64,000 nucleotides of DNA from Polytrichum commune (taxonomy: Eukaryota; Streptophyta; Polytrichopsida; Polytrichales; Polytrichaceae), in contig OX485808.1 in assembly GCA_950295325.1 (NCBI GenBank), positions 1,554,501 to 1,618,500 on the forward strand, in the 5' to 3' direction. Shown here piece by piece: positions 23,812-50,892 of this stretch (positions are counted from its first letter, which is position 1; every line of letters starts with the position of its first letter). The notes beneath the pieces are model-generated. The model was not told where the DNA came from, made no database searches, and saw only the letters and a list, made by a program, of their open reading frames with translations. The position numbers were made by a program, and so were the translations under genes.

Positions 23812-24785
23812 TGTCGCGCACCTCTCCATGAGGAGTGCCCGAAACACCATGGGCACAAGGGGGACCCCGGAGTGACACCCGGGACTTGTGGCGCCGTTGG
23901 TGAGAGGGCCCAAGTGATCCTAGGGTGGGTGAGGGCCCCGGGCGTTGGGAACGCCTCCCACCCACAAAGACTAGGAGGCACAAGGGTAAGGCCATGAGCT
24001 ATGCGTAGCTCATGGCGTGGTGATTCTAGAAAGCCCAAGAACACCTCAATCGGAGGTGTGAGCTAGGAGTTATGGCCATTTGAGTGGGGCGCTGTCCCGG
24101 GACAGCGCCCTGGTACAGCAGTGCCTGGGAGTGATTCCCGGGACTGCCAAGGTTCAAACAGGCATAACCTCCTCACCACTTGCCCGAATGGGGCAAGTGA
24201 GGAGTCCATCGGAATCTACGTGAAGCGTAGATGAAGATGAAGTGGTTGGTTGCTGGAATCAGACATCATACAAGGAAGTTATGATGGTCTGAAGCTGCTG
24301 GGGGGCTTCTAGGCCCAGCAGCTAAGGGAAAATGTCCACTTGGCCCCAACTCTTGGTAGAGAGACAAGAGGTTGGTTGACGGTGGGGTAGGGGCCCCGCG
24401 TAGAGTCCTAGAGGCTTATATGGGTGAGGTGGTGTGGCCTCACCCACCCGAGGCCGAACGGCACGGCCTCCATGGGCATTGGCCCATTGTGAGGCCATAG
24501 TTGCCTAGTATGGTTCGGGTTGTTGTAGTGTTGCTCCGGCAACGCGATGATCAACATAGGATTGGACTTCCATGGATGGAAGTCCACATTGGGGAAATGG
24601 GTTACCGATTAAGGGGTGAGTCCCGAAAGCAAAGTAGGAGGGTTGGTTCCCTCCTATGAACTATTGGTCCGGGGTAAGAGGAGCTATCCATTAGCATGGC
24701 GGAATGCGAAGGGTTAGCAACTCGTAACCTTTGCTAGAATTGAAAATTGGCAAGATTATTAATGGACCTAGCAAGGGTTGCGACA
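23812..24785 (+). repeat. 5' LTR of the chromovirus element
   Basis: 974 bp, TGTCGCGCACC...GGGTTGCGACA. It carries several perfect inverted repeats, the strongest a 24-bp palindrome at 24087-24110 (half-site GGGCGCTGTCCC). By eye it matches the 3' LTR base for base. Confidence 0.93.
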
Positions 24786-29532: not shown

Positions 29533-30506
29533 TGTCGCGCACCTCTCCATGAGGAGTGCCCGAAACACCATGGGCACAAGGGGGACCCCGGAGTGACACC
29601 CGGGACTTGTGGCGCCGTTGGTGAGAGGGCCCAAGTGATCCTAGGGTGGGTGAGGGCCCCGGGCGTTGGGAACGCCTCCCACCCACAAAGACTAGGAGGC
29701 ACAAGGGTAAGGCCATGAGCTATGCGTAGCTCATGGCGTGGTGATTCTAGAAAGCCCAAGAACACCTCAATCGGAGGTGTGAGCTAGGAGTTATGGCCAT
29801 TTGAGTGGGGCGCTGTCCCGGGACAGCGCCCTGGTACAGCAGTGCCTGGGAGTGATTCCCGGGACTGCCAAGGTTCAAACAGGCATAACCTCCTCACCAC
29901 TTGCCCGAATGGGGCAAGTGAGGAGTCCATCGGAATCTACGTGAAGCGTAGATGAAGATGAAGTGGTTGGTTGCTGGAATCAGACATCATACAAGGAAGT
30001 TATGATGGTCTGAAGCTGCTGGGGGGCTTCTAGGCCCAGCAGCTAAGGGAAAATGTCCACTTGGCCCCAACTCTTGGTAGAGAGACAAGAGGTTGGTTGA
30101 CGGTGGGGTAGGGGCCCCGCGTAGAGTCCTAGAGGCTTATATGGGTGAGGTGGTGTGGCCTCACCCACCCGAGGCCGAACGGCACGGCCTCCATGGGCAT
30201 TGGCCCATTGTGAGGCCATAGTTGCCTAGTATGGTTCGGGTTGTTGTAGTGTTGCTCCGGCAACGCGATGATCAACATAGGATTGGACTTCCATGGATGG
30301 AAGTCCACATTGGGGAAATGGGTTACCGATTAAGGGGTGAGTCCCGAAAGCAAAGTAGGAGGGTTGGTTCCCTCCTATGAACTATTGGTCCGGGGTAAGA
30401 GGAGCTATCCATTAGCATGGCGGAATGCGAAGGGTTAGCAACTCGTAACCTTTGCTAGAATTGAAAATTGGCAAGATTATTAATGGACCTAGCAAGGGTT
30501 GCGACA
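29533..30506 (+). repeat. 3' LTR of the chromovirus element
   Basis: 974 bp, the same length as the 5' LTR and with no difference that I could find by eye. It is preceded by the purine tract GGTGGGGGTGAG and followed by the CTCCT duplication. Confidence 0.93.
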
Positions 30507-30544: not shown

Positions 30545-32123
30545 TTAAGATTCCACTCTTGAGGACTACTTTGACCTCGTTGAAGCTGAAGGTTGGCGCG
30601 TGGATGAAAAGGTCTACATCAGGATTGCGATGGCAGACCTTTAAAAAGATGAAGTAGACATGTTTGCAATACGAGAACTGACTCCTCCCTCAAAATTTGG
30701 TCATTGTCTGTCGCAACCTTTGCTAGCCCCCCTTGACAATCTTGCCAATTTTCAATTCTAGCAAAGGTTACGAGAGCTAACCATTCGCATTCCGCCATGC
30801 CAATGGTTAGCTCCTCTTACCCCGGACCTTATAGTTCATAGGAGGGAACCAACCCTCCTACTTTGCTTTCGGGACTCACCCCTTAATCGGTAACCCATTC
30901 CTAGATGTGGACTTCCATCCATGGAAGTCCAATCCCATGTTGATCATCGCGTTGCCGGAGCAACACTACAACAACCCGAACCATACTAGGCAACTATGGC
31001 CTCACAATGGACCAAAGCTCATGGAGGCCGTGCCGTTCGGCCTCGGGTGGGTGAGGCCACACCACCTCACCCATATAAGCCTCTAGGACTCTACGCGGGG
31101 CCCCTACCCCACCGTCAAGAGACCTCTTGTCTCTCTACCAAGAGTTGGGGCCAAGTAGACATTTTCCCTTAGCTTCTGGGCCTAGAAGCCCCGAGCAGCT
31201 TCAGACCATCATAACTTCCTTGTATGATGTTTGATGCTAACAACCAACCCCTCGATCTTCATCTACGCTTCATGTAGATGCCGATGGACTCCTCACTTGC
31301 CCCATTCAAGAAAGTCTTGAGGGAGTTATGCCTGTATGAACCTTGGCAGTCCCGGGAATCACTCCCAGGCACTGCTGTACCAGGGCGCTGTCCCGGGACA
31401 GCGCCCCACTCAAATGGCCATAACTCCTAGCTCACACCTCCGATTGAGGTGATCTTGAGCATTCTAGAATCACCACGCCATGAGCTACGCATGGCTCATG
31501 GCCTTACCCTTGTGCCTCCTAGTCTCTGTGGGTGGGAGGCGTTCCCAATGCCCGGGGCCCTCACCCACACTAGGATCACTTGGGCCTTCTCACCAACGGC
31601 GCCACAAAACCTGGGTGTCACTCCGGGGTCCCCCTTGTGCCCATGGTGTTTTGGGCAGTCCTCATGGAGAGGTGCGCGACATTGTCTTCTTGAATGCGGG
31701 GTAGGTGCAACCTGGAAGGGAGCTGATGGTGATATGGTATTGTGTCACGTCGGGTGGCGTCATCGAGTCTAGCGCAATGTTGCAACCATGGCCAAGGTGA
31801 GGAATCATCGTGACCGAGTGGAGTCGAGCTTTGAGGGAGTCCGAAGAGCCCATGGATAGCCTCTGCTGAGGGTTTGGACGGGTTGCTATGCGCTTGACGA
31901 TCTTCCCTTCTCTCTTGCTAGGATACCTGTCCGCATCCGTGGGCACCGACACGGAGTCTAGATTTGCCGGAGACGGGGTTGTGGAAAAGAGCTTTCTGGG
32001 CGAAACCGACACTTTCTGCGGCAGTTGGAATCCGACACTTCTATGTGAGCATAGAGCGGAGAGCGGAGAGCATAGAGGAAGTAAAAATAGCAAACTTGGC
32101 AGATTAAATTTAGGAAAATTCAA
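30545..32123 (-). pseudogene. SWIM zinc-finger protein pseudogene, copy 1 (split by a solo LTR)
   Basis: The minus-strand frame 32123-31687 ends VTMIPHLGHGCNIALDS, then YHITISSLPGCTYPAF, where the solo LTR begins. On the other side of the LTR (30718-30545) the protein resumes with YCKHVYFIFLKV and DLFIHAPTFSFNEVKVVL. Together these are the halves of a SWIM-type finger (CxC...CxH; the first Cys position reads CTY here) and its C-terminal tail. SWIM fingers occur in plant MULE-like transposases and many repetitive plant proteins. Only the C-terminal third aligns with copy 2; the region upstream of about 31950 differs. A stop lies in the segment just left of the LTR. The gene is dead; any ancestral role is unknown. 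Confidence 0.75.
30719..31681 (-). mobile_element. solo LTR of the 974-bp family, inverted
   Basis: 963 bp from TGTCGCAACC to GGTGCGCGACA on the plus strand, the reverse complement of the chromovirus LTR with scattered substitutions. TTGTC flanks it on both sides (30714-30718, 31682-31686). It interrupts a SWIM-finger pseudogene, splitting its zinc-finger region. Confidence 0.93.
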
Positions 32124-37175: not shown

Positions 37176-38150
37176 TGTCGCAACCCTTGCTAGCCCCCCC
37201 TTGACCATCTTGCCAATTTTCAATTCTAGCAAAGGTTACGAGTGGCTAACCCTTCGCATACCGCCATGCTAATGGTTAGCTCCTCTAACCCCGGACCAAT
37301 AGTTCATAGGAGGGAACCAACCCTCCTACTTTGCTTTCGGAACTCACCCCTTAATCGGTAACCCATTTCCCCAATGTGGACTTCCATCCATGGAAGTCCA
37401 CTCCTATGTTGATCATCGCGTTGCCGGAGCAACACTACAACAACCCGAACCATACTAGGCAACTATGGCCTCACAATAGGCCAAAGCCCATGGAGGCCTT
37501 GCCGTTCGGCCTCGGGTGGGTGAGGCCACACCACCTCACCCATATAAGCCTCTAGGACTTCACGCGGGGCCCCTACCCCACCGTCAACCAACCTCTTGTC
37601 TCCCTACCAAGAGTTGGGGCCAAGTGGACATTTTCCTTTAGCAGCTGGGCCTAGAACCCCCCAGCAGCTTCAGACCATCATAACTTCCTTGTATGATGTC
37701 TGATCATAACAACCAACCACTCCATCCTCATCTACGCTTCACGTAGATGCCGATGGACTCCTCACTTGCTCCATTCGAGCAAGTCTTGAGGAAGTTATGC
37801 CTGTTTGAACCTTGGCAGTCCCGGGAATCCCTCCCAGGCACTGCTGTACCAGGGCGCTGTCCCGGGACAGCGCCCCACTCAAATGGCCATAACTCCTAGC
37901 TCACACCTCCGATTGAGGTGATCTTGAGCATTCTAGAATCACCACGCCATGAGCTACGCATAGCTCATGGCCTTACCCTTGTGCATCCTAGTCTCCGTGG
38001 GTGGGAGGCGTTCCCAACGCCCGGGGCCCTCACCCACACTAGGATCACTTGGGCCCTCTCACCAACGGCGCCACAAGTCCCGGGTGTCACTCCGGGGTCC
38101 CCCTTGTGCCCATGGTGTTTCGGGCACTCCTCATGGAGAGGTGCGCGACA
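37176..38150 (-). mobile_element. solo LTR of the 974-bp family, inverted
   Basis: 975 bp (TGTCGCAACCC...GTGCGCGACA on the plus strand). The 5-bp duplication GTACC borders it (37171-37175, 38151-38155). The palindromic half-site GGGCGCTGTCCC is intact. It sits in what looks like the 5' leader of the split ORF starting at 38209. Confidence 0.93.
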
Positions 38151-38208: not shown

Positions 38209-38642
38209 ATGCCGGAAACACGAGAAGAGGATCAGAGGGAACCCATCCCGATTCCGCTCAAAGCTCTCGTCCCTGCAATTCCAAGGGAGGACATGGAGTT
38301 GCAGGTTCTAGTGGAGGATCTCCGGGTTATGGGCTGCGCGGGGTTGCTCGCCAAACCCTGGAACCTCCGAGCGGAAAATACCCTCCGGGAGTTCAAGTTT
38401 GAGAGAGGTAATCAGTGACTAGGGACCAAGAGGAGGGATCCCGATAACTGGACTCCGGATGTTTGGAATAGGGTCTACGGGTTCCCGAGGGGAATTGCAG
38501 AGGGGTGGGCCGGCCGCTGCGATGGCATGTTTGCCGAAAAATTTAGAAGGGACGCGGATCCGAAGGACGGCTTCCACCCCGGGAACTGCCGGAACCTTAG
38601 GGAACGAAGGGTGTTAGAGTTCCTCCTGCCCATCCTTAACCC
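38209..38642 (+). pseudogene. unrecognised ORF, 5' part (split by the DNMT gypsy element)
   Basis: It starts MPETREEDQREPIPIPLKAL and continues with PREDMELQVLVEDLRVMGCA; a TGA at 38416 then interrupts it, and the same frame resumes with NWTPDVWNRVYGFPRGIAEG to RRVLEFLLPILNP. At 38642 the host frame is cut by the DNMT element and picks up again at 49387 in the same reading frame. I do not recognise the family; its neighbourhood suggests a gag-like protein of another mobile element. With the TGA and the insertion it is dead. Confidence 0.6.
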
Positions 38643-38975
38643 TGTCACGGTATGCGGCGTCGATGGCCGCACCTTATCCGTTGGGTTTCATCCATCTAGA
38701 TTTGGATGGATGAATCTAGATGTGGAGAGGAAGGCTCCTAAGTGAGGAGCCTCCTTCTTGGCTTGGCATTCTTGCCAAGTCAAGTCTTGTGAGTTAGTGT
38801 GTGGAGAGAGCTTGTTTGAGGTGTAGATTGCATGATTTTGCAATAAATCTTGAGTTCTTCTTCTCCTACTTACACTCTTGGATTCTCCCTTGGTGGAGTG
38901 AGAGATAGCTTGACTAGTTGTGTGCATTTGGAGAGAAATTAGAGCTCTTATGAGTGTTCTACTCTCTTCCTTCTC
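38643..38975 (+). repeat. 5' terminal repeat of the DNMT element (shared part)
   Basis: Begins TGTCACGGTATGC. It matches 48008-48340 without indels and with six differences noted by eye. Beyond 38975 the two ends diverge abruptly (ACTTGGCAAG here, GAGGTGTGTTG at the 3' end). Confidence 0.85.
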
Positions 38976-40483
38976 ACTTGGCAAGAATGCCTTCACTTTT
39001 CTTCTTTGCTTGTTCATTCTTGAGATATTATGCGCAACAAAAAGCTCGAGGACAATGAATGATGAAGTTGTGAAGTGTTAGAGCGAAGAATACTGCAGAT
39101 TTGAGGAGCAACAAGAAGAAAGAGGTGTCATTGTGAAGTTTACATATCACCTTGAATTGTGGTGAGAAATCTTTCAATTTTCCATGGAATTTAATGTTAT
39201 TTGGCTCACATTCAAGCTTGAATTCATACATTAAGCTTTTGAAGCGGATTTGTGATTCTAAGTGCAAGAATTTGTGAACCAAACACAAATTTTTGTGAAA
39301 CAAATCATTAAAAAAAATGGGAGGACGAAGAGGGAGGTAACCTGCCTCCCTTTGCTGCTGGCCCTGCCAGTCTGCACAGCAGTGGTTGGCTATCTGCGTC
39401 AGTGGCTGGCAACCTGCGTCAGCGGCTGCCTGCCTGCCTGCGGCAACGGGTTCCAGCAGCTGTGATAATTCCAGCCCCTCAGCTGGGGCATGAATGGGGG
39501 ATAATTTTTTAGGCAGAATCGGTTGAGACCTGGGTGTTTGTAAATCCAACCAGTTACGCGTGGACAATCATTTAGTTTATTCTATTCTATTCTATTCTTT
39601 TTTATTATTTTGTTTTTGTTTTTGTTTTAATTAATCAATGTGTTAATGAATTAAAACCGGACTTAATTTAATTTAATAATTAAAAACCGGGTTTTTTATT
39701 TTAATTAATTAATTAGTTTATGTTTCCTTTCAACTTCTAATTTTTCTCTCCTCTTTAAGAGGTTAATTTCTTGGGCTCATTAATCAAGGACACAAGGAAG
39801 AAAATCTAAGCTCTTATGAAATATTAAAAATACTTGGGATTTCTTTTTAGGGGTTGTGTTGTACGAAATTTCGGAGGGGAATGCCATTGGAGATTGGATG
39901 ACATGTGGAATTTCAGTTCAGCCTAAAATAAATTATTATTAAGGTCGAATTGTGTTTATCAACACATATTCCCGGCATTGTTGTGAGGAGAGATTCTTAG
40001 GTAGTGGTGGGAAAATGAGAGATGTGCATTTTCTTTTCTTAAGCAACAGGGACTCTTTATTTTGACCACCAACTGCAGGCGAGTGCCAGTTGGTTGCGGT
40101 CGTGTTCAATTTCTGCTTGAATGTTGTTTTGAGGAAGAGGATCCAGTGCTGTTCTTGCATTGTTCCTTGTATTTTGTTTTGGTACCTTCCCCTGTGGCGG
40201 GCTGTAGTGCTAGAATGTTCTAGCACTGCCCCATTTTGTGTAGTCCTAGATTGTGATAGGGTACTGTGGAGGTGAGGTCGGATTAATGACCGACGGGATC
40301 TTTGTTTGTGCACCAAGTGGGCGGTGCTTGTTTTCACTTGTGGTGAGGTTGGGTTAATGACCAACAGACCATAAGTTTTGGTGGTGGTTGCAGGTGCAGG
40401 TTGCTTTTGACCCTTTTTCTCTTTGTCCCTGGATACTAATTCATTTTGGGTTGTTGATTCGGTGACCATCCCATTGTGGGTTT
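38976..40483 (+). other. 5' LTR remainder/leader of the DNMT element
   Basis: No protein-coding segment recognised. AT-rich runs at 39590-39720 precede a region with a short internal repeat (GTGAGGT.GG.TTAATGACC at about 40274 and 40345). I could not find a tRNA-like primer-binding site or a clear LTR end. Confidence 0.4.
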
Positions 40484-43351
40484 ATGGTTACAACTCGTAT
40501 TCAACACTATCGTTCTCCAACCCCAGGAGCATCGGAAGGTTATCCCTCGGACCTCTCGGACGTTGAACCAGTGGTAGCACCCAACGAGGTTTTTCAGCCT
40601 ACTTCGGCGTGGGGGACTATCACTCGGTCTCACGTCCTGTGGGTGGGAACCTTTGACGATATGGAGGAGGAGACTAGGGGAGGAATACGGGACCGGTTTT
40701 CCGGTCGAGCAGGGACCATTTCTCTGCAAGACTGGAAAATCCGGTTTCGTACGTGGATGCGAGAGAAACGCCAACGCAATACCAATTTCAACGATTGGTA
40801 TGCGTTCGAGCTTCTGCCTCAGCATTTGGAGCATGAAGCTCTCCAGACTTATGAGCAGTGGACAGAGGCTCATTGGATGGAGCTGCGCCAGGTTGAGCGG
40901 TACTGGGAGACTCGGGTTGAGTTGGTATCCGCATTGAAGGAAGGCGTAGCCTCCAGTTTCATGGCCGTTCCGGATGTCAAGACGGAGATACCGGAGGGAG
41001 GTTATGTGATGGATGTAGACGGAGCTCCTCCTGGTGAGTTGAGGGCTACGGGCCCTGCTCCTACTGCGGCGAGTACGTCGAGCCCAGTTCTTCCACTCTC
41101 GCGTTATGCCATGGCCACCCAAGCGGCTTTAGCCTCTTTAGGGGTTCCGCCAGATTTTGAGCCATTGCGGGCATTTGAGCTGCATCTACAGGGAGAGTAC
41201 GGAGGCTTCCGTCGTGACCAGATGCAGCGGATACAAGATTTCAGACGGGAGAAGGACGATACACCTCGTACCATGTATACGAGGTTGGCGAGGTTTGCCA
41301 GAGAATCTGGAGGTGTGTTCGCGGAAAGTCAGTTGGTAAAGGTGTTTTTGTCAAAGATTGACAAACGTCTCCTTGACTTGGCGCTACCCAGGATCATCAT
41401 GGAGTTTGGTGGTCGAGCGACACTCGCAGAGGCATTCGCCGTGGTGGAGCAGTGTGATCGTGCATTATGTCAGCACGATGCCACTGATTTGGTGTCCTTG
41501 CTAGTGGATTCTAGCAAATCCCGAAGAGTTCCGGTTGCGGCTGTGGGATTGGCGGAGGCCGAGGTAGACAAGACCATGTATTGTTGGTCTTGTGGGCAGG
41601 CCGGCCACGCTAAGAAGGACTGTCCTTCGAAGCAAAGGCAAGCCCAGACCATCACTACTTCGAAGCGGAAACCATTTGTTCCCGCTAAGGGCTCGGCGAA
41701 GGGGACGACGGGTAATCAGTTACCCAAGCAATTGAAGTGTTCCCATTGTGGGTGGAACAATCACGCGGTAGAGAACTGCTTTGCTCTCCATCCTGAGAAA
41801 CGTCCTTCTTCCGACCGGGAGAAGACGTTGGAGGCGAAGATTGGAGCCATGGAGGAGAGGTTCAAAAGCTTGGCGTCATCCGGCCAAATCTTGGCCTCAC
41901 CGTCTTCCTCCGGAGCTCAGGCTAGTTCTTCCACTCCGGATTACTATATGTTCGGAGCCTCGGGCGAGGTGGTGAGTTCCGCGGCCGTGACACGTGCTCA
42001 AGCCGTGTCACAATCCATACCTTCGACCACAAATGAATATGTGGCAAGCTCGCGAGCTCGGGACAATGCGCCCGCGGACCAAATTGGTCAGGCACGACTA
42101 CCATTATCTTTTGGATTGGCCGATGCCGTCCAATCTGTCTGTGGTCGCCATCCGAACGATGAGGTTTCACATTTAGCGACCGATGTGGCGCACACGTTGG
42201 CATCCAAGGTGTTGCACACACCTTTGTTCACGGCCATGGAGTGGTCATCGCCAGAGTTCCAACCTGCTAAGGTTTTTCACTTAGCAGGTAGGATTTTGGA
42301 AGGGAAGGCATCCTTACCTTCTCTGACCGTGGCTCAAGCCACTACGGACATCCCTACTTCTGAAGATCCTGAGGATGTGGTCAAACGGCGAGCGAGACTT
42401 GCGGCAGAGACCATTGCGTCTTTTGACGCACATGCCTCAGATGACAAGGCACCGACCACGTTTTATGACTTACCAGTATCCGCGGGTGCAGCCTATCTTT
42501 CTGATGTCGCTACTCGGGTTGCTCCCCGTTGTGTGATGATGGATTCAGGGGCACAGCCAGTTATGATCGGCAAGAGACTTGCCCAAGAGTTGAGGTTGAC
42601 GGCCGAGGATTTGGCTCCCTGTCCATTCACCATTGTCACATCCATTGGTCACGTGGAGCGGGCCATGGGTTACACTCGAGAGCCATTACAGCTTAGCTTC
42701 CGAGTGAAGCCTGGAGATTCACCCGCACCTCTTCTTCTTAGGTGTGCGGTAACGGATGCGACCAACTATGACATTTTAGTTGGTCAGCAAGCACTTTACC
42801 CTCTTGGTTTTGGTTTGGACAACTGGACTAAGGAGGCGTGGATCCGACCAGGTTGGTCGGCTGGGGATGGCCGCAGGGAACTTATTCCCGTGGCTTTCGC
42901 GGCGGCCGCGACCATAGCACCATTATCTATGGTTTTTGGATGTGGTGCTATGGTGGACACATTGCCTTATGTTTCCGCATTGTTGGAGGAGTCATTGGCA
43001 TTCATGGGGAGTACAGACAATCAACGGGATATGGCACCTAAGAATGCATTGGTGCGCCATTCCAAGGATCCCCTTCCTCCTTGGCGTGATTCCGCCGAGC
43101 TATTTTGGAGGTGCGAGGATATTGTTCACTCTCTCACTCCTAGGACACCGGTCATACCGGGTGTCCTCTCGGCATTGGCACATCCCATTTTATGGCAGCC
43201 GCCAGACGCGGGGATTACTTTGGTGGAACTATTTGGGGGCATCGGCACAGGCTTAGCGGCCGTATTGGAGGCTGGCCTCACGGTCAGACGGTATGTCTAT
43301 GTGGACAACTCTCAAGTGTCCACCCGTGTGGCTCGTCACCATCTTCACTAG
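40484..43351 (+). CDS. gag - protease ORF of the DNMT element, running into methyltransferase motif I
   Basis: A 955-codon frame from MVTTRIQHYRSPTP. A gag capsid-like region (residues ~60-330: LQDWKIRFRTWMREKRQRN, LARFARESGGVFAESQLVKV) is followed by two CCHC knuckles, C367-C370-H375-C380 and C419-C422-H427-C432, which package RNA. A serine-rich spacer leads to an aspartic protease with DSGA at 687-690. From about residue 910 it enters a cytosine-5 methyltransferase domain with motif I VELFGGIGTG (914-923). A TAG at 43349-43351 ends the frame in the middle of that domain, and the domain continues directly in the same frame after it. The stop is therefore more likely a mutation than the natural end. 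Confidence 0.88.
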   Translation: MVTTRIQHYRSPTPGASEGYPSDLSDVEPVVAPNEVFQPTSAWGTITRSHVLWVGTFDDMEEETRGGIRDRFSGRAGTISLQDWKIRFRTWMREKRQRNTNFNDWYAFELLPQHLEHEALQTYEQWTEAHWMELRQVERYWETRVELVSALKEGVASSFMAVPDVKTEIPEGGYVMDVDGAPPGELRATGPAPTAASTSSPVLPLSRYAMATQAALASLGVPPDFEPLRAFELHLQGEYGGFRRDQMQRIQDFRREKDDTPRTMYTRLARFARESGGVFAESQLVKVFLSKIDKRLLDLALPRIIMEFGGRATLAEAFAVVEQCDRALCQHDATDLVSLLVDSSKSRRVPVAAVGLAEAEVDKTMYCWSCGQAGHAKKDCPSKQRQAQTITTSKRKPFVPAKGSAKGTTGNQLPKQLKCSHCGWNNHAVENCFALHPEKRPSSDREKTLEAKIGAMEERFKSLASSGQILASPSSSGAQASSSTPDYYMFGASGEVVSSAAVTRAQAVSQSIPSTTNEYVASSRARDNAPADQIGQARLPLSFGLADAVQSVCGRHPNDEVSHLATDVAHTLASKVLHTPLFTAMEWSSPEFQPAKVFHLAGRILEGKASLPSLTVAQATTDIPTSEDPEDVVKRRARLAAETIASFDAHASDDKAPTTFYDLPVSAGAAYLSDVATRVAPRCVMMDSGAQPVMIGKRLAQELRLTAEDLAPCPFTIVTSIGHVERAMGYTREPLQLSFRVKPGDSPAPLLLRCAVTDATNYDILVGQQALYPLGFGLDNWTKEAWIRPGWSAGDGRRELIPVAFAAAATIAPLSMVFGCGAMVDTLPYVSALLEESLAFMGSTDNQRDMAPKNALVRHSKDPLPPWRDSAELFWRCEDIVHSLTPRTPVIPGVLSALAHPILWQPPDAGITLVELFGGIGTGLAAVLEAGLTVRRYVYVDNSQVSTRVARHHLH

Positions 43352-44215
43352 TTGATGGTATTGTATCCCCAACAGTTACACCCAACTGCCATTCATGGGT
43401 GTTTTTCACGTCTCCCTCGTGATGTTACACTCATCAGTGAGGCCGACTTACGACACTTGGGCCCGGTGGATATGGTGATTGCGGGATGGCCATGCCAAGG
43501 CCACTCACGTGCTGGAGCAGGCGGAGGACTCGAGGATCCCAGGTCTACTCTATTTTGGGACCTCATCCGCCTCATGCAGTGGTGGTATTCCCACAAACCT
43601 TTCCCTCCAGGGTATATTTTCGAGAATGTACCTTTGTTGGGAGACTCTCGGGACAAGGTGTTGGAAGGTGATTATTATGTTCGTCAACACCTTGGAGATC
43701 CCATTTTTGTGGATGCCACGAGCATTGGTTCTTATGCCCACCGACCTCGGTGGGTTTGGACCAACCTCGCACCGTCATCTACTTTAGCTGCAGCATTTTC
43801 TGCAGTGCCTCCACCTTTTGATCAAAAGGTGGATGACATCTTGGATCCAAACCGGACTTCTTTGCCGGTTATTCGAGATGATTTACCCCCGTTGGCATTA
43901 GTCAACAAAATGGGGGCACCACGGCGGGCCTTTCCCACATTTATGACGTTTCCACAGTCATTCGCTTTCCGCGATAGGGGGCCGGGTATGGTGTGGGATG
44001 TTCACACCAAAACCCACACCGAACCATTGGCTGACAAACGGGAACGTGCCATGGGATTCCGCACTGGCACCATCGCAGCTCCCGGCCTTTCTGAGGGCCA
44101 ACGACGCTTCGTGTTGGGCCAAGCTATGGATCTTCATACTATGGTGTGGACTGTTGCTTTATGCCTTTCATTGCAAAGGCATCGTGGTGACCAGTGGTTG
44201 TCTCTGGGGGCATAG
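43208..44215 (+). pseudogene. C5 cytosine DNA methyltransferase domain (DNMT3-like), one in-frame amber
   Basis: The enzyme class transfers methyl from S-adenosylmethionine to carbon 5 of cytosine in DNA. Visible motifs in order: I, LFGGIGTG (43229-43252), the SAM-binding loop; IV, GWPCQG with the catalytic Cys at 43493-43495; VI, FENV (43619-43630); VIII, HRPRW (43739-43753) preceded by PIFVDATSIGSYA. Late in the domain are RERAMGF and RRFVLGQAMD in the positions of motifs IX and X. The PIFVDA...AHR.R.VWTNL pattern and the short target-recognition region are closest to the DNMT3/DRM group. The catalytic set is complete except that TAG at 43349 splits motif I from motif IV. A TAG at 44213 ends this frame; the following linker stays in frame. 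Functional history is inferred from motif retention. Confidence 0.88.
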
Positions 44216-44470
44216 GACTCTGGTCAGGGGGCACAGCGGTCCACACCCATGGAGGAAGGAATTTACGCCATGGTTGGAGAAGCCGAACGAATTTTTCAAT
44301 TCGAGCAACATGTGATGGAGGAGCTTCGAGCTCAACATTTTTACACTGCTTCGGTTTCTTCGCCTCCGGTGGTGGCTTCATCATCACATATTGGTAGTGA
44401 TGAAGAAATGTCAGACTCTAGTACTAGCACCGAGACTGGGGGCATGGTTAATGCCCCCTCCTCTCATTAG
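44216..44470 (+). other. acidic/serine-rich linker between methyltransferase and pol
   Basis: 84 codons in the same frame as gag-DNMT, including EEGIYAMVGEAERIFQFEQH and SDEEMSDSSTSTETGG, closed by TAG at 44468. It has no known domain. Conservation of frame from 40484 through this linker into RT suggests a single long translational unit. Confidence 0.6.
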
Positions 44471-44476
44471 CAATTA
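44468..44476 (+). promoter_or_regulatory. candidate stop-codon readthrough site (TAG CAA TTA)
   Basis: The amber codon followed by CAATTA matches the CARYYA consensus that permits ribosomal readthrough in tobamoviruses. It lies in frame exactly between the gag-protease-DNMT part and RT, where retroelements control their Gag to Pol ratio. No RNA structure was assessed. Confidence 0.6.
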
Positions 44477-47289
44477 GAGTCTGTGCCAGCATCAGGTGGT
44501 TCTCCTTTGGTGGAGAGGGAGACTACAGAGTTTGATGATTGGCCACTTGAATTAGGCCCTCGTCTCACTGGTGCTGAGGCACGGAAGGTACGAGCATTTA
44601 TTCGCTCGTACCGTAGATGTTTTGCTTTTAGCCTTCAAGATCTTGAAGGTTATAAAGGAAAACCCATCCACATTCAGTTGGAGGACGACCATCCTATTTT
44701 TCGGATACCTTACAGGCTGAGTGTTTCCGAGCGGATTGGCGTTCAGGCTCGTTGCCGAGAGCTCTTGGCAGCAGGGCTAATCGAACTTTCCAACGGGGAG
44801 TATGCTTGTGCTACGGTTATGCCATCGAAGAATGATATCTTTGGCAATTGGACGGAGAAGCGGATGTGTGGGGATTACCGTCCAGTTAATCGGAAGACCA
44901 AGTTGGATCGATATCCCATGCCAATCCCGGAGGAGTTGCTCGATGCCCTCGGATTTGCTCGAGTCTTTAGCACGTTGGACTTGAGATCCGGCTATCACCA
45001 ACTCCCATTACTTGTGGGAGACCGAGTGAAACCGCATTCTGGGGAGTTGATCAAGATGGGAAGGATCAACTTTACCATTGGAAGTTTCTTCCATTTGGCC
45101 TGAAGAATGCACCCGCTGAGTTTCAGTGGGTGATGGATCAGGTTCTCTCTGGCTTGCCCTTTGCTCGGTGTTACATAGACGATGTGATCATCTTCAGCAC
45201 AACACCACAGGAGCATGTGAGGCATCTGCAAGCCGTTTTTGAACGGTTGCAGCGGTGGGGATTGCGCTTGCACCACGGCAAGTGCAAGTTTTTTCATGAC
45301 CGGTTGGCATATTTGGGGCATATGATTGTTCCAGGAGGTCTTGGGGTACAACAAGCTAAGGTGGACGCATTGTAGAAGATTCCGGCACCGGTAGATGTGC
45401 CGAGACTTCGTACTTTCTTGGGCTTGGCGAATTACTATCGGCGATTCGTCAAGAACTTTAGCTTGATTGCCAAGCCGCTCACCAGTCTCACGAGCAAGGA
45501 CCAACCTTGGACTTGGGGTCGTGAGCAGCAACAGGCATTTGAGACATTGAAACAGAAACTAGGTACGGCTCCAGTGCTTCGACGTCCAGATGTTTCCAAA
45601 TCTTTCCAGTTGCATACAGACTGGAGCTCATTGGGTTTGGGAGCAGTTCTTACTCAGAAAGATGACGTTGGCCGGGAGTATGTTGTTGCTTACGCGTCGC
45701 GAAGCAACAACACGGCGGAGGCCAATTATTCGTCCTATGAGGGAGAAGCATTGGCGGCGGTGTGGGCTATTGCCCATTTCCGGCCATATCTTTATGGTCA
45801 ACACTTTACTTTGGTGACTGACCATCAGCCATTACGGTGGCTCATGGAGTCGGATAAGCTTACTGGCAAGCTTGCCAGGTGGGCTTTGTTGCTCCAGGAG
45901 TATGACTTTGAGGTGGTACACCGTGCTGGGATTACCAACATGGATGCAGATGGACTCTTACGTAATTCAAGTCCTTCGGATGAGGATTTGACTGGGGCCA
46001 GGTGGCATGGAGATTGTGATCGAGAGGCGGTTCCAGGTTGGCACGCGGCTGCCTACCTCACTTTATTTTCTGGTGCATCTGTTGAGATTCCGATACAGGG
46101 CTCGGATGATGAGACTGATCGGCCTGAAGCTATTGCGGATATATGGGAGGATCTTCCTGTATTGCATAAGCTTCAACAGGGTACCTTCCCTTTGTCTAAT
46201 TCGGCGATGGAAAATGATAGGATTGGACATCGAATAACAAGGTTCCGTTGGGAGAACGGTTTGTTATTTCGATTGTGGCCGGATGGGACAAGGCGTATTG
46301 TTCCTAGGCCGGATCAGAGGGCCTCCTTGGTGCGACAAGTGCACGACGAACTTGGCCATTTTGGCATACGCAGGACACATTCGATGTTGCGCGGCCAATA
46401 TTGGTGGACTGGCATGTATCAGCAGGTGGCTGCATATGTCGGAAGGTGTGAAGTTTGTGACCGGGTCAGGTCTAGCTTTAACACCTTATCACCTCAGCTA
46501 CAGCCCTTACCTATCATGGGATTAGGCTACTGTTGGTCGCTGGACTTTGCAGGGTCGTTGGTGGTTACACCACGTGGATCAAAGTACGTTTTGGTGATGG
46601 TGGAGCATTTTAGCAAGTGGATTGAGCTTGTTGCTCTACCCCAGAACTCTGCAGAGTTGGCCGCGGCCGCCTTTTTGGATCGTGTGTTAGCACGTTTTGG
46701 AGCACCAGCTGAGGTGTTGACGGACCAAGGAAGGGAGTTCCTTGGTGTTTTTGAGGAGTTGTGCACTAAGGCTCTCATAGATCACCGCACCACCTCTCGG
46801 GATCATCCGGAGGCAGATGGCTTGGTTGAACGGGTTGTTCAGACAACCAAGCGTGGCTTGAGGAAGTATGGATTACTTCGGGGAAGCCACCGGGATTGGG
46901 ACCTTATGTTGCCATGGATTGCTATGGGCTATCGATTTAGTAAGCAGGCCTCTTTGGCATCCTACAGCCCGTATCAATTATTGTATGGACGTGAGCCTAT
47001 ACTCCCGAGTTCTATTCGGGAAAAACTAGCTCATGTTGTCAACTTGGATGACCCAGACCTTTGGGCAGAGTGTTTGCAGGAGCGGGCTCAATTCTTCCAA
47101 AAGGCCATGCCTATGGCCATGGAGAATTTGTCCATTGCTCATCATCGTGACACATTGCGTTATGCACGCATTCGTAGTGGTGCTTACCGACCTCAGTTGC
47201 GGAGATTTCGGCAGGGGGATTATGTCTATCTCCAACGTGAGGCGCCTACGACATTGGATGTCAGGGCGGGGCGCACAACCTTCGGGTGA
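44471..47289 (+). pseudogene. pol of the DNMT element: RT, RNase H, integrase (frameshifted)
   Basis: RT begins in the gag frame (FRIPYRLSVSERIG, MCGDYRPVNRKTKLDRYPMP, FSTLDLRSGYHQLP). A one-base indel near 45030 shifts the frame, so 44483-45103 ends wrongly while the next frame carries FLPFGLKNAPAEF and YIDD (45172-45183). TAG at 45373 interrupts the RT thumb. From 45397 to 47289 (630 codons) run LRTFLGLANYYRRFVKNFSL, RNase H (LHTDWSSLGLGAVL, YEGEALAAVWAIAHFRPYLY), the integrase zinc region (HDELGHFGIRRTH...CEVCDR) and the catalytic core with Asp at 46543, Asp at 46723 and Glu at 46828 (D,D35E spacing). A frameshift near 47275 separates it from the PHD tail. Confidence 0.92.
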
Positions 47290-47615
47290 AGGAGGTGTTG
47301 CCGAGTGGTTTGTTGTTGTTGGAAGGCAAGGATGGCAGGGAATGTCGCGAGCATTCCAAAAATTGTGCCCCATGTCATCTACCTATTGAGGGTACAATTC
47401 ATCCTGAACTGGCCGTCGTGCCAGAGGGTCTTCCATGTTTTGTGTGTGGAGAGAAGAAAGGAGCGGCTACTATGCTCTTGTGTGATCAGTGTCAACGCGG
47501 TTGGCACATGGCATGCTTGAGGCCACCCTTGACTTCTCTACCATCTAGACAGTGGAGTTGTCCTCGCTGTCGAGGATCTTCGGTACTTGGTACTTCCACC
47601 AATCGTACTCAATGA
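47286..47615 (+). pseudogene. C-terminal PHD finger of the DNMT element polyprotein
   Basis: This frame continues the integrase C-terminus (KEVLPSGLLLLEGKDGRE, REHSKNCAPCHLP), a usual gypsy integrase tail, and then encodes a full C4HC3 PHD finger. Zinc ligands by position: Cys 47436, 47445, 47481, 47490; His 47505; Cys 47514, 47559, 47568, with the family's Trp two residues before the last Cys pair. PHD fingers read the H3 tail (usually K4 unmodified or trimethylated). Placed after integrase, it occupies the position of the chromodomain in chromoviruses, which guides integration. The single-base frameshift with pol upstream means this copy cannot make the fusion. An integrase-tethering role is inference by analogy. 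Confidence 0.85.
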
Positions 47616-47887
47616 TCCTGTATGGTTTTCATCATCTTATGCCTGCCCAAATGGAAAATGAGGAGTTATGGCTTAGAAACGCAATCAACATGAGGCGGTG
47701 GATTTAATTCTTTGGGATCTGATGGCCAAACATCAGAGGCGATTAAGGATGGGGCTCACCTTGCACCCAGCCTACAGTTCCTTGGAATAACGTTTACTAC
47801 ACTAGTTAGTTGCGGAGCAATCTTTCATTATCCATGCCCTTTAGATTGGCATTGGTCCTAGCTGCTTGGCGGGACTCCATAGTCAGC

Positions 47888-47899
47888 TGAGGGGGGGCA
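47888..47899 (+). other. polypurine tract
   Basis: TGAGGGGGGGCA directly precedes TGTCGAGG at 47900, the layout of a plus-strand primer and LTR start. It does not precede the TGTCACGG terminus at 48008, which is one reason the LTR structure is unresolved. Confidence 0.65.
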
Positions 47900-48005
47900 T
47901 GTCGAGGTGTGTTGTTTATGTGTGACTTTGCTATGTTTTAGTGTTGTTTGTTAGTGGTGGTTGGTACTCGAGATGCAGTGATACACGATCGTTATTTACA
48001 CGACA
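47900..48005 (+). repeat. 106-bp unit A, copy 1 (TGTCG...CGACA)
   Basis: Sits between the polypurine tract and the TGTCACGG repeat. It ends with the inverted complement of its start (TGTCG/CGACA). A second copy, lacking the first bases and split by a solo LTR, forms the 3' edge of the whole insertion (48339-48399 plus 49345-49387), with one substitution noted (GAGATGCAG against GAGCTGCAG). Confidence 0.75.
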
Positions 48006-48007
48006 GC

Positions 48008-48340
48008 TGTCACGGTATGCAGCGTCGATGGCCGCACCTTATCCGTTGGGTTTCATCCATCTAGATTTGGATGGATGAATCTATATGTGGAGAGGAAGGC
48101 TCCTAAATGAGGAGCCTCCTTCTTGGCTTGGCATTCTTGCCAAGTCAAGTCTTGTGAGTTAGTGTGTGGAGAGAGCTTGTTTGAGGTGTAGATTGCATGA
48201 TTTTGCAATAAATATTGAGTTCTTCTTCCCCTACTTACACTCTTGGATTCTCCCTTGGTGGAGTGAGAGATAGCTTGACTAATTGTGTGCATTTGGAGAG
48301 AAATTAGAGCTCTTATGAGTGTTCTACTCTCTTCCTTCTC
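48008..48340 (+). repeat. 3' terminal repeat of the DNMT element (shared part)
   Basis: 333-bp match to 38643-38975 with six substitutions and no indels. At 48341 it joins unit A copy 2. Confidence 0.85.
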
Positions 48341-48399
48341 GAGGTGTGTTGTTTATGTGTGACTTTGCTATGTTTTAGTGTTGTTTGTTAGTGGTGGTT

Positions 48400-49339
48400 T
48401 GTCGCGCACCTCTCCATGAGGAGTGCCCGCAACACCATGGGCACAAGGGGGACCCCGGAGTGACACCCGGGACTTGTGACGCCATTGGTGAGAGGGACCA
48501 AGTGATCCTAATGTGGGTGAGGGCCCCGGGCGTTTAGAACGCCTCCCACCCACAAAGACTAGGAGTCATGAGGGTAAAGCCATAAGCTATGAGTAGCTTA
48601 TGGCGTCCTGATTCTAGAATGCTAAAGAACACCTCAATCTGAGGTGTGAGCTAGGAGATATGGCACTTTGAGTGGGATGCTGTCCCGGGACAGCGCCCTG
48701 GAACAGCAGGGGCCTGGGAGTGGCTCCCGGGACTGCAAAGGTTTAAACAGGCATAACTTCCTCAATACTTGCCCGAATAGGGCAAGTGAGGTGTCCATAG
48801 GGATCTACGTGAAATGTAGATGACGATAGAGTGGTTGGTTGTTAGATTCAGAGACCGCACGTGGAAGTTATGAAGGTCTAAAGCTGCAGGGAGGCTTCTA
48901 GACCCAGCGGCTAAGGGAAAATGTCTACTTGGCCCCAACTCTTGGTAGAGAGACAAAAGGGATGTTGACGGTGGGGGAGGGGCCCCGCCAAAAGTCCTAG
49001 AGGCTTATATGGGTGAGGCGGCTTTGCCGACCGACCCCCCCGGAGCATACTTGGCAATGTGCTCCGGGTGGTTGTAGTGTTGTCCTAGCAACACTATGAC
49101 CAAGTAGGGAGTGGACTTCCATGGATGGAAGTCCACCTTAGCGATGGGTTGCCTACTAAGGGGAAAGAGTCCCGAATGCATGTGTAGGAGGGTTTGGTGA
49201 CCAAATATGGGATTGAAGGTCCGCGGTTTTGAAAGCTAACCATGCATGTGCGTGGGATGTGCAGGTTAGCGCTCGGGACACTTGCTAGAGTTGGAAAGCG
49301 ATTGAGCTAAGTAGAGAAAAACTAGCAAGGGTCGCGACA
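48400..49339 (+). mobile_element. solo LTR of the 974-bp family, forward
   Basis: 940 bp, TGTCGCGCACC...GGGTCGCGACA, the most diverged copy in the window. It is flanked by TGGTT (48395-48399, 49340-49344). Removing it restores unit A. It lies inside the 3' end of the DNMT element and is therefore younger than that insertion. The palindrome half-site is damaged here (GGATGCTGTCCC). Confidence 0.93.
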
Positions 49340-49386
49340 TGGTTGGTACTCGAGCTGCAGTGATACACGATCGTTATTTACACGAC

Positions 49387-50892
49387 AACCCAGACAAGCC
49401 GAAGCGGATTAGCCTTACCATGGCTAACACCCTGTTCGGTGCTATGTCTGGAGTCCGGCCAGTGAATTGGGGTCTGATAATTCAAGAAATAGTAGGGCGG
49501 GCCCTCCCCCATATAGGGGGGAAACCCTCCTTCCTCTCCCCCTTCATTATGCACTTCTATCAGCACTTCGACTGTTTCACGGCCGAGGAGGAGGACCTGC
49601 TGACGATAGCGGCGGACGAGGTCACCTACAAGCTCCATCCGGAAGTTGGAGACTTCGAGACGGAGACTTCCAGCGACCCCATCATTCCGGAAGCACCTCC
49701 CTCGTCACCCGGAAGCTCGCCACCAACCCTCCAGAGGCCAATCTCTCCTTCCCCTCATCATCATCCGGAACCCGGGCCCAGCCGGGAGACCACTTGGCGG
49801 AATGTGGATCTCTCCGCTTGGGACTTTCCGGAAAATCCCTTCAAGCGGGTCCAAGAGGGGATGGAGGATCTGCAAAACCAGTATTACCGGGTGGAACACA
49901 TCGTCCGAGGAGCGAACCAGGCCCTGGACGACTGCGGACCCGAAAACATTCTCCAGGAGTTGGCAAAGAGGGTGGACAGGAAGGAGCTCGAGCAGGCCAA
50001 GACGGAGAATGCTCACCTCACCACGCAGGTAGCGGCCATGACTCAAGAGCTAAGTCAGAAGAGCGAAGAGATCCGGAAGTACCACGCGGAGCAGGCAGTG
50101 GTCTTCAGTCGGATCCGGGAGCTGGTGGGGCATCCGGCAGAGATCGTCAACAAGGCACATCTCTACGACCGGATGAGGGAGTCCGGAGAACCCGCTTCCG
50201 CTAGGCAGACCCTCCCCATCCTCCTGAAATACTCATGGACGATGAAGGATCTCCTGGCGGAAATCCAAAAGGTGGTTCCGCCAAGCGGAACACCACGGCG
50301 GGTATTCTATCCGGGTCCACCTGGGTCACCAACCGGAACCCTCTACGAGGTAGTTGGTGAAGTCGCCCTGGTCCAGAATCCGCCAACGTCTGCAGGACCC
50401 AGCCAGCAGGGAGGCGGCTCTCGGCCTGCTAGTTCCGGGAGAGCTCCGGAAAGGATCCGTTCTCCCCAGGTGAGGAGGAAGAGCACCGGGTCTGTTAGAT
50501 CCGGACGAGGGCAGTCCCCTGTTCCGCGGACCTCGGATCGGTCCCGGACTCCGGACAGGGCTAGGACGTCGATAAGGCACCAAACTTCAGATGGAGAGGC
50601 AACTCCGAGTAGGGGTAAGGCCCCTATGACCCAAGCCTCGCCGTCGTCTCCTCTGGCCTGCCAAATGGTTAGCCCTTTTCCTCCGCCATCCTCAAGGGCG
50701 GCCTCCAACAGGGATCTGTTGACTGCCTCGATCTCGGGCGGGCAGAATCCGGAACAGCGCACCGGACGCGATCCTTCCCCGATCCGGAGCGTCCGGAGGG
50801 GAGTACAGTTTCCGGAACACCAGGGACCGGAACACCGCGGACCGAAGGAGCAGCGGACTCGGAGGATGAGATTGCCCCGTCTCCGAACATGA
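49387..50892 (+). pseudogene. unrecognised ORF, 3' part (continues 38209-38642)
   Basis: Resumes in frame with NPDKPKRISLTMANTLFGAM, then PSFLSPFIMHFYQHFDCFTA, a Pro/Ser-rich stretch and a coiled-coil-like segment (KRVDRKELEQAKTENAHLTT). The C-terminal third is Arg/Ser/Pro-rich (RSGRGQSPVPRTSDRSRTPD), typical of a disordered nucleic-acid-binding tail. The ATG at 49339 that opens the uninterrupted frame is created by the end of the solo LTR and its duplication, so it is not the original start. Near 50860 the better frame may shift and run to about 51008. Apart from a suspicion of mobile-element origin (gag-like) I cannot assign a function. Confidence 0.55.

Follow-up and report, generated by a model that had tools for sequence, protein, structure and literature searches.

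A Ty3/gypsy-type retrotransposon family of Polytrichum commune with split terminal repeats, a DNMT3-type methyltransferase and a PHD finger

Introduction

How can a retrotransposon that encodes a DDE integrase come to be bounded by repeats which are not ordinary long terminal repeats (LTRs)? The question is raised by a stretch of 64,000 nucleotides of Polytrichum commune (assembly GCA_950295325.1, contig OX485808.1, positions 1,554,501 to 1,618,500 of the forward strand), hereafter the window, whose own numbering is used below. The interval 38643-49387, read on the plus strand, is a decayed member of a large family of Ty3/gypsy-type retrotransposons, and carries in order gag, protease, a cytosine-5 methyltransferase, reverse transcriptase (RT), RNase H, DDE integrase and a PHD finger. 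The element has a single repeat, X, on the left, and the array A-GC-X-A' on the right, A' being a second copy of A. The initial annotation of the window emphasized the joint presence of a DNA-methylation writer and a potential histone reader, and took the whole as an insertion flanked by a 5-bp target duplication; the split repeats were overlooked, and are the more surprising feature of the two. In the explanation which we hold to be probable, the element is one copy of a family which primes its own reverse transcription, is cut by its integrase at an internal palindrome, and exploits the methyltransferase and the PHD finger as writer and reader, respectively.

Results

Split repeats in two subfamilies

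Most family copies share the organization X-body-A-GC-X-A', TGTC...GACA termini and 4-bp target duplications, and fall into two subfamilies. Copies were sought in the genome to which the window belongs (408 Mb, 64 contigs) by a 1-kb probe spanning from protease into methyltransferase, which family members lacking the methyltransferase would escape. Forty of 403 candidate places were scored, window included, with 96-100% identity. The ends of subfamily 1 were analyzed in 39 of the 40 probe copies (C1:11001910 was excluded); 10 right ends and 9 left boundaries lay beyond the sequence read or were lost from it. X-A' forms 24 of the 29 readable right ends, and A lies ahead of X-A' in 23 of these 24. 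A single A is found at the right end of 5 of the 39 copies; two of the five are flanked by perfect duplications, one by a duplication with one mismatch, and two have no readable left flank. When both flanks are readable (n = 23), 4-bp duplications are perfect in 20 copies, and feature one mismatch in three.

Nine genomic places contain open frames of 1386 aa which surround the methyltransferase match. These, and one place hosting a frame of 1356 aa, all belong to the second subfamily, which has differing repeats: its X is 73-79% identical to the X of subfamily 1 over the 68-194 nt aligned by BLAST. All ten ends were read, after trimming a leading TG absent from the probe. Eight right ends are A-X-A', one of them with the first A partly outside or missing, and two are A alone; perfect 4-bp duplications flank all ten copies, including both with A alone.

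The length of A is nearly constant (106-107 bp). The X/A' joint is mostly exact, and varies from copy to copy; in one copy (C1:21760094) it carries TGAGGGGGGGCA, which corresponds to the polypurine tract. On average, the two X of a copy resemble each other more closely than they do the X of other copies, and the same holds for A, as expected if both members of a pair derive from one template per round. Between copies, distances are 0.032 for A-A', 0.031 for A-A and 0.033 for A'-A'.

Primer-binding site and polypurine tract

X runs right up to the primer-binding site (PBS), which is complementary to a part of X, and A begins at the base following the polypurine tract (PPT). In 15 of 17 copies the perfect PBS complement includes the very first base, and in the remaining two it begins two bases further on. 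Fourteen of the 17 copies have a complement of 13 nt or more, and the lengths in the last three are 12, 11 and 8 nt; shuffled X sequences yield 9 nt at most. In the two subfamily 2 copies in which the PBS was read, both sides of the PBS-X pairing have changed together. Since X ends at the PBS, and A starts after the PPT, the X/A' joint is where the two tips of the cDNA would meet, and the cDNA repeat should be A-GC-X. Priming by tRNA was considered and rejected because, by the general rules of tRNA priming (no tRNA search was made), it would not yield the observed end of X.

A PBS after the 5' repeat, a PPT before the 3' repeat and a short target duplication are all features of Ty3/gypsy elements, as is the order RT, RNase H and DDE integrase in pol, established here by Pfam and motifs. 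Ty3/gypsy elements have in addition complete direct LTRs at both ends, but at the left end of this one X stands alone.

Coding regions and state of the window copy

A Pfam scan covering five open reading frames (ORFs) of the element, combined with the motif positions, confirmed that the set of domains listed in the initial annotation resides in one insertion. Matches are strong for RT_RNaseH (6.6e-38), Integrase_H2C2 (3.7e-18), rve (4.8e-14), DNA_methylase (PF00145, 3.8e-12) and PHD (PF00628, 5.7e-12). Those to the zinc knuckle (E 0.0023), aspartyl protease (E 0.041) and RVT_1 (E 0.031), the last in a region where the reading frame breaks, are weak if taken alone; yet, CCHC, DSGAQ, FSTLDL and YIDD motifs are present where expected. 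The integrase motifs LDFAG, TDQG and DGLVER are found at 46540, 46720 and 46816, respectively. The window copy is broken by a stop codon within the methyltransferase and by frame changes in RT and ahead of the PHD finger, and misses about 90 bp just upstream of the protease motif, a stretch which other copies have. As to the boundaries 38643 and 49386 initially assigned, the start holds and the end does not, as the element ends at 49387, and about 940 bp inside it are a foreign solo LTR; the supposed 5-bp duplication is the 4-bp sequence ACCC. All features are listed in Table 1.

The methyltransferase

Ten copies, that of the window among them, were read over stretches of 10 kb and more. As to the search for further copies suggested in the initial annotation, all ten carry the methyltransferase at the same position; the claim that the DNMT3-like enzyme is encoded by the element is upheld, within the reach of a probe which includes the start of the methyltransferase. 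The Pfam DNA_methylase model scored 123 of 353 candidate places in the genome, at least one of which is a host gene (C2:4703606), presumably DRM by its order of motifs. Given the same position in the 10 copies read and the 123 scored matches, a host gene fragment inserted in a single copy is rejected. Gag, protease and at least part of the methyltransferase are in one open frame in 3 of the 10 copies.

Motif I of the methyltransferase is at 43232, motif IV (GWPCQGHS) at 43484, motif VI (FENV) at 43619 and motif VIII (AHRPRW) at 43736. The catalytic domain is nearest to DNMT3 in the profile ranking, and its motifs follow one another without the rearrangement of the DRM type; on these grounds the enzyme is classified as DNMT3-type. 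Motif IV reads PCQ, not PCN as in DNMT3C, and all 18 aligned sequences agree in this Q, in the catalytic C and in the E of motif VI. The DRM type is rejected, as the profile ranks DRM far below DNMT3, in a comparison which did not directly include CMT and plant MET1.

Selection was assessed in 7 to 10 copies per domain as the ratio of replacement to silent changes relative to expectation. For changes common to at least two copies the ratio is 0.29 in the methyltransferase (15 silent changes, 9 replacements and 1 stop), 0.28 in RT, 0.14 in RNase H-integrase, 0.12 in protease (5 changes) and 0.50 in gag. For changes found in a single copy, the values are 1.03, 0.89, 0.62, 1.29 and 0.80, respectively, and 1.37 in the PHD finger. 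A low ratio among shared changes, and a higher one among single-copy changes, are expected if the enzyme was constrained while the family moved, and copies decayed after insertion.

The leader between PBS and gag (38978-40483) varies strongly among copies (69-92% identity in pieces, with gaps), coding pieces being mostly 92-98% identical, as if leaders had been swapped between subfamilies. The region L088 (C2:4702200-4705200) contains exons of a host gene with rearranged methyltransferase motifs, the gene which we take to be DRM. This gene and the methyltransferase relatives described below speak for a streptophyte host, perhaps a bryophyte.

The PHD finger and relatives in other organisms

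In five of the 10 copies read, one open frame runs through both integrase and PHD finger, which supports the proposal that the PHD finger is encoded by the element alongside the methyltransferase. Its best solved relatives by sequence are the PHD fingers of CHD4 (9e-15), PHF12, KMT2D/KMT2C, KDM5-type proteins and UHRF1. Several such PHD fingers recognize the unmodified H3 tail.

A protein search with the methyltransferase retrieved 61 relatives, the named ones from Marchantia polymorpha, Calypogeia fissa and Sphagnum. A search with the integrase C-terminus plus PHD finger gave 120 matches, in 108 of which both domains were recognized (phmmer at 1e-3 with the domains of the family itself). Named matches include those from K. 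nitens, Marchantia, Calypogeia, Sphagnum, Volvox and Haematococcus, and one record tagged Chrzof is presumably from Chromochloris. Klebsormidium, liverworts, Sphagnum and green algae all have the integrase-PHD combination. Eleven proteins contain both methyltransferase and PHD finger, two from the first search and nine from the second. This distribution suggests that the PHD finger is the more ancient and more widespread module, the methyltransferase having been gained later, although most integrase-PHD records lack the upstream part in which a methyltransferase could lie. Among viral contigs, only relatives of 24-35% identity were seen in the 80 loci listed.

The methyltransferase precedes RT in most relatives whose order can be read, and directly precedes integrase in one clade. 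A tree was built from 60 methyltransferases and one fragmentary outgroup, dropping methyltransferase stretches shorter than 200 or longer than 420 residues. The seven sequences labelled as having the enzyme after RNase H, or directly before integrase, form one clade (support 0.96); in five of the seven the label means that no RT was seen between methyltransferase and integrase. The methyltransferase tree can neither date nor count captures.

Neighbouring features

The solo LTR which interrupts A' has its own 5-bp duplication, and belongs to another element. The window hosts five copies of this TGTCGCGC...GCGACA LTR family, at 23813-24746, 29534-30467, 30749-31680 (minus strand), 37217-38149 (minus strand) and 48400-49339. 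The first four, each compared with the fifth only, are 79-80% identical to it and, by their position, could be the LTR pairs of two adjacent elements in opposite orientation. A 517-aa open frame (49339-50892) lies directly after the element.

Table 1. Features of the retrotransposon and its immediate flanks, in window positions.
Feature	Position	Strand	Remarks
Target duplication, left	38639..38642	+	ACCC
X, left terminal repeat	38643..38975	+	333 bp, starts TGTC; AATAAA 38842-38847
Proposed self-primer inside X	38765..38780	+	perfect complement to PBS, 16 nt; fold z -4.97
PBS	38976..38991	+	directly after X
Gag region	40484..42400	+	two CCHC knuckles, 41582-41623 and 41738-41779; Pfam, motifs
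Aspartyl protease	42540..42952	+	DSGAQ 42542-42556; Pfam, motifs
DNMT3-type cytosine-5 methyltransferase	43190..44212	+	in-frame stop 43349-43351; Pfam, motifs
RT	44483..45396	+	frame broken; YIDD 45172-45183
RNase H and DDE integrase with H2C2 finger	45397..47289	+	Pfam, motifs
C4HC3 PHD finger	47436..47570	+	C-terminal of integrase; frame shifted in window copy
PPT	47890..47899	+	AGGGGGGGCA; also at X/A' joint of C1:21760094
A	47900..48005	+	106-bp repeat, TGTCGAGG...CGACA
A/X junction palindrome, proposed integrase attachment site	48002..48011	+	GACA-GC-TGTC
X, second copy	48008..48340	+	98.2% identical to left X
A', second copy of A	48339..49387	+	interrupted by foreign solo LTR
Solo LTR of another element	48400..49339	+	TGTCGCGC...GCGACA; foreign insertion in A', flanked by the 5-bp duplication TGGTT
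Target duplication, right	49388..49391	+	ACCC

Discussion

By analogy with the cutting of retroviral junctions, the integrase of the family appears to use the internal palindrome GACA-GC-TGTC. In the model proposed, the RNA would start in X near position 123, and its 5' end would fold onto the PBS and prime reverse transcription, as in Tf1. Ordinary strand transfers would then yield a linear cDNA with an A-GC-X repeat at both ends. The integrase would ignore the tips of the cDNA, and cut both strands at the palindrome within the left repeat. The two ends so processed, GACA-OH with a 2-nt GC overhang, would be joined to the target across a 4-bp stagger, and end joining would seal the loose tips, namely the start of A and the end of the right X, to give X-body-A-GC-X-A'. 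In one subfamily 2 copy (L181-L182; C4:3506585 and 3516035) the X/A' joint features a repeated start of A, a further sign of end joining. The left repeat may be chosen because it turns double-stranded first, or the near-constant length of A may play a part. As for X-body-A, it may form directly at integration, or be due to later loss through recombination of A with A'. The methyltransferase, as the enzyme family to which it belongs suggests, probably methylates the cDNA of the element or its insertion site; by the same reasoning, the PHD finger probably steers the integrase to histone H3. A conserved 20-base block holds CG and CAG/CTG sites. We consider it slightly better than an even bet that the attachment site has moved from the cDNA tips into the palindrome in the middle of the repeat, and that permuted integration followed by end joining generates DIRS-like repeats without a tyrosine recombinase, while the DNMT3 of the element might mark one of the two sites and so decide the cut, which would connect the captured enzyme with the absence of the X-A-X form.

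Several data do not fit comfortably. Random cutting of 2-LTR circles predicts X-A-X-body-A as often as X-body-A-X-A', but A was found before the left X at none of the 30 left boundaries of subfamily 1, and in none of the 10 copies of subfamily 2. With X-A-X absent from 40 left ends, something must favour the left repeat, and timing is only a guess. The exact joints could instead be copied from RNA. The 8-nt PBS complement of one of the 17 copies is within the range of the shuffled control. In 10 of 11 copies the X of another copy, taken as the minimum over all others, is nearer than the partner X; this nearest foreign X is mostly one partial X of 199 nt, and the within-copy likeness holds for means only. 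A second conserved block of 20 lies inside X. The shared-change ratio of the PHD finger is 0.92, a value based on just 6 changes in 7 copies, numbers too small to judge. Finally, C-to-T changes in X are only marginally more frequent at CG (11/392) than at CHH (87/3557), and are rarer at CHG (2/140), and hence leave no trace of heavy CG methylation in the repeats; decay of the repeats of the CG type was considered, and is not seen in these counts.

The repeat order is the same as in DIRS elements (A-coding-B-A-B), to which the repeats of a K. nitens element are assigned in a legend (PMC5890265). One may accordingly imagine a cycle in which the RNA contains the whole X-body-A-X-A', the A-X junction bridges a circle, and the DDE integrase inserts at A/X. 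Mostly exact X/A' joints would be accounted for, but such a cycle needs neither the PBS-X complement nor the PPT, which both sit at the joint, and leaves unexplained the PPT found at one joint; moreover A' is no lineage apart from A, as the distances between copies tell. We regard this scheme as unlikely. Insertion of closed circles, each cut at A/X, would turn 1-LTR circles into X-body-A and 2-LTR circles into X-body-A-X-A', and both forms do occur with target duplications. The same process predicts X-A-X-body-A equally often, against its absence from all 40 left ends, and X-body-A may also be a secondary product of A recombining with A'; the chances of this explanation are slim.

The layout might also be the relic of an ancestral rearrangement in one master copy, passively copied ever since, and it is in fact common to copies of both subfamilies. 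However, repeat pairs within a copy show, on average, the greater likeness, joints differ among copies, and the same layout and joint rule are seen in a subfamily of different sequence, which makes a relic very hard to believe. As for the methyltransferase, it could be a functionless passenger, given that the window copy is broken, as are most of the 10 copies read, and that single-copy changes in the enzyme look neutral (1.03). Shared changes are nevertheless poor in replacements (0.29), neither the catalytic C nor the motif VI E varies in the alignment, and nine genome places preserve the 1386 aa frames around the methyltransferase match, the other encoded parts there being unread; a mere passenger is improbable.

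Should self-priming followed by cutting at the palindrome be correct, the family would provide a natural DDE integrase which uses an internal palindrome as its normal substrate, an issue long debated for retroviral 2-LTR circles, and would reveal a route to split repeats which dispenses with a tyrosine recombinase. A family of many copies, some young enough for joint reading, is in addition a suitable test of what is gained from combining a DNA-methylation writer with a histone reader. Annotation may benefit as well, since relatives of the methyltransferase sit in Marchantia, Calypogeia and Sphagnum proteins labelled as hypothetical or unnamed.

One of the closest known systems is KnitGypsy-Dnmt3 of Klebsormidium nitens, a Gypsy element which encodes Dnmt3 within its Pol frame and has repeats called those of DIRS (PMC5890265); both traits are found in the family described here. 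The same paper reports purifying selection on DNMT, and that retrotransposon DNMTs can methylate CG de novo. Differences are that no PHD finger appears in its main text, and that no integration mechanism, self-priming or target duplication is given for KnitGypsy-Dnmt3 in the sections consulted. The K. nitens integrase-PHD protein KFL_010570010 (partial) is 51% identical to that of the family, and could belong to KnitGypsy-Dnmt3 or to another element. A further paper merely cites DNMT3 in retrotransposons (PMC12344493). In the titles and abstract openings of the open-licence papers searched, neither a PHD and DNMT combination in a retrotransposon nor integrase-bearing split-repeat elements with such an end structure were found; the initial remark that the two domains had not been described together thus holds for this literature, not as a statement of rarity, eleven database proteins holding both.

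Split direct repeats (A-body-B-A-B) are shared with DIRS, PAT and Ngaro. DIRS/PAT-like elements are not known to make target-site duplications, whereas 4-bp duplications are present here, together with a DDE integrase, a PBS and a PPT, and no tyrosine recombinase was recognized by Pfam among the five ORFs scanned. Tf1 and the self-priming Ty3/gypsy elements have a 5' RNA stretch complementary to the PBS; here the complement lies within X, and would be at the 5' end of the RNA if transcription starts where predicted. Tf1-type self-priming elements have ordinary LTRs at both ends.

In a survey of plant elements self-priming is predicted for 12%, and the available text has no mention of PHD fingers (PMC6317226). 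A histone-reader module at the integrase C-terminus is shared with chromoviruses (PMC6317226), in which it is a chromodomain and not a PHD finger. The HIV-1 integrase cuts the palindrome at the 2-LTR circle junction in vitro (PMC1905944), and the foamy-virus integrase cuts a palindrome leaving a 2-nt 5' overhang (PMC1180852). The cut proposed here is of the same kind, as a palindrome is opened, both ends are processed together and, as in foamy virus, the stagger is of 2 nt. In retroviruses, however, the junction forms only as the cDNA ends meet, whereas in the P. commune family the palindrome is built in, inside the repeat.
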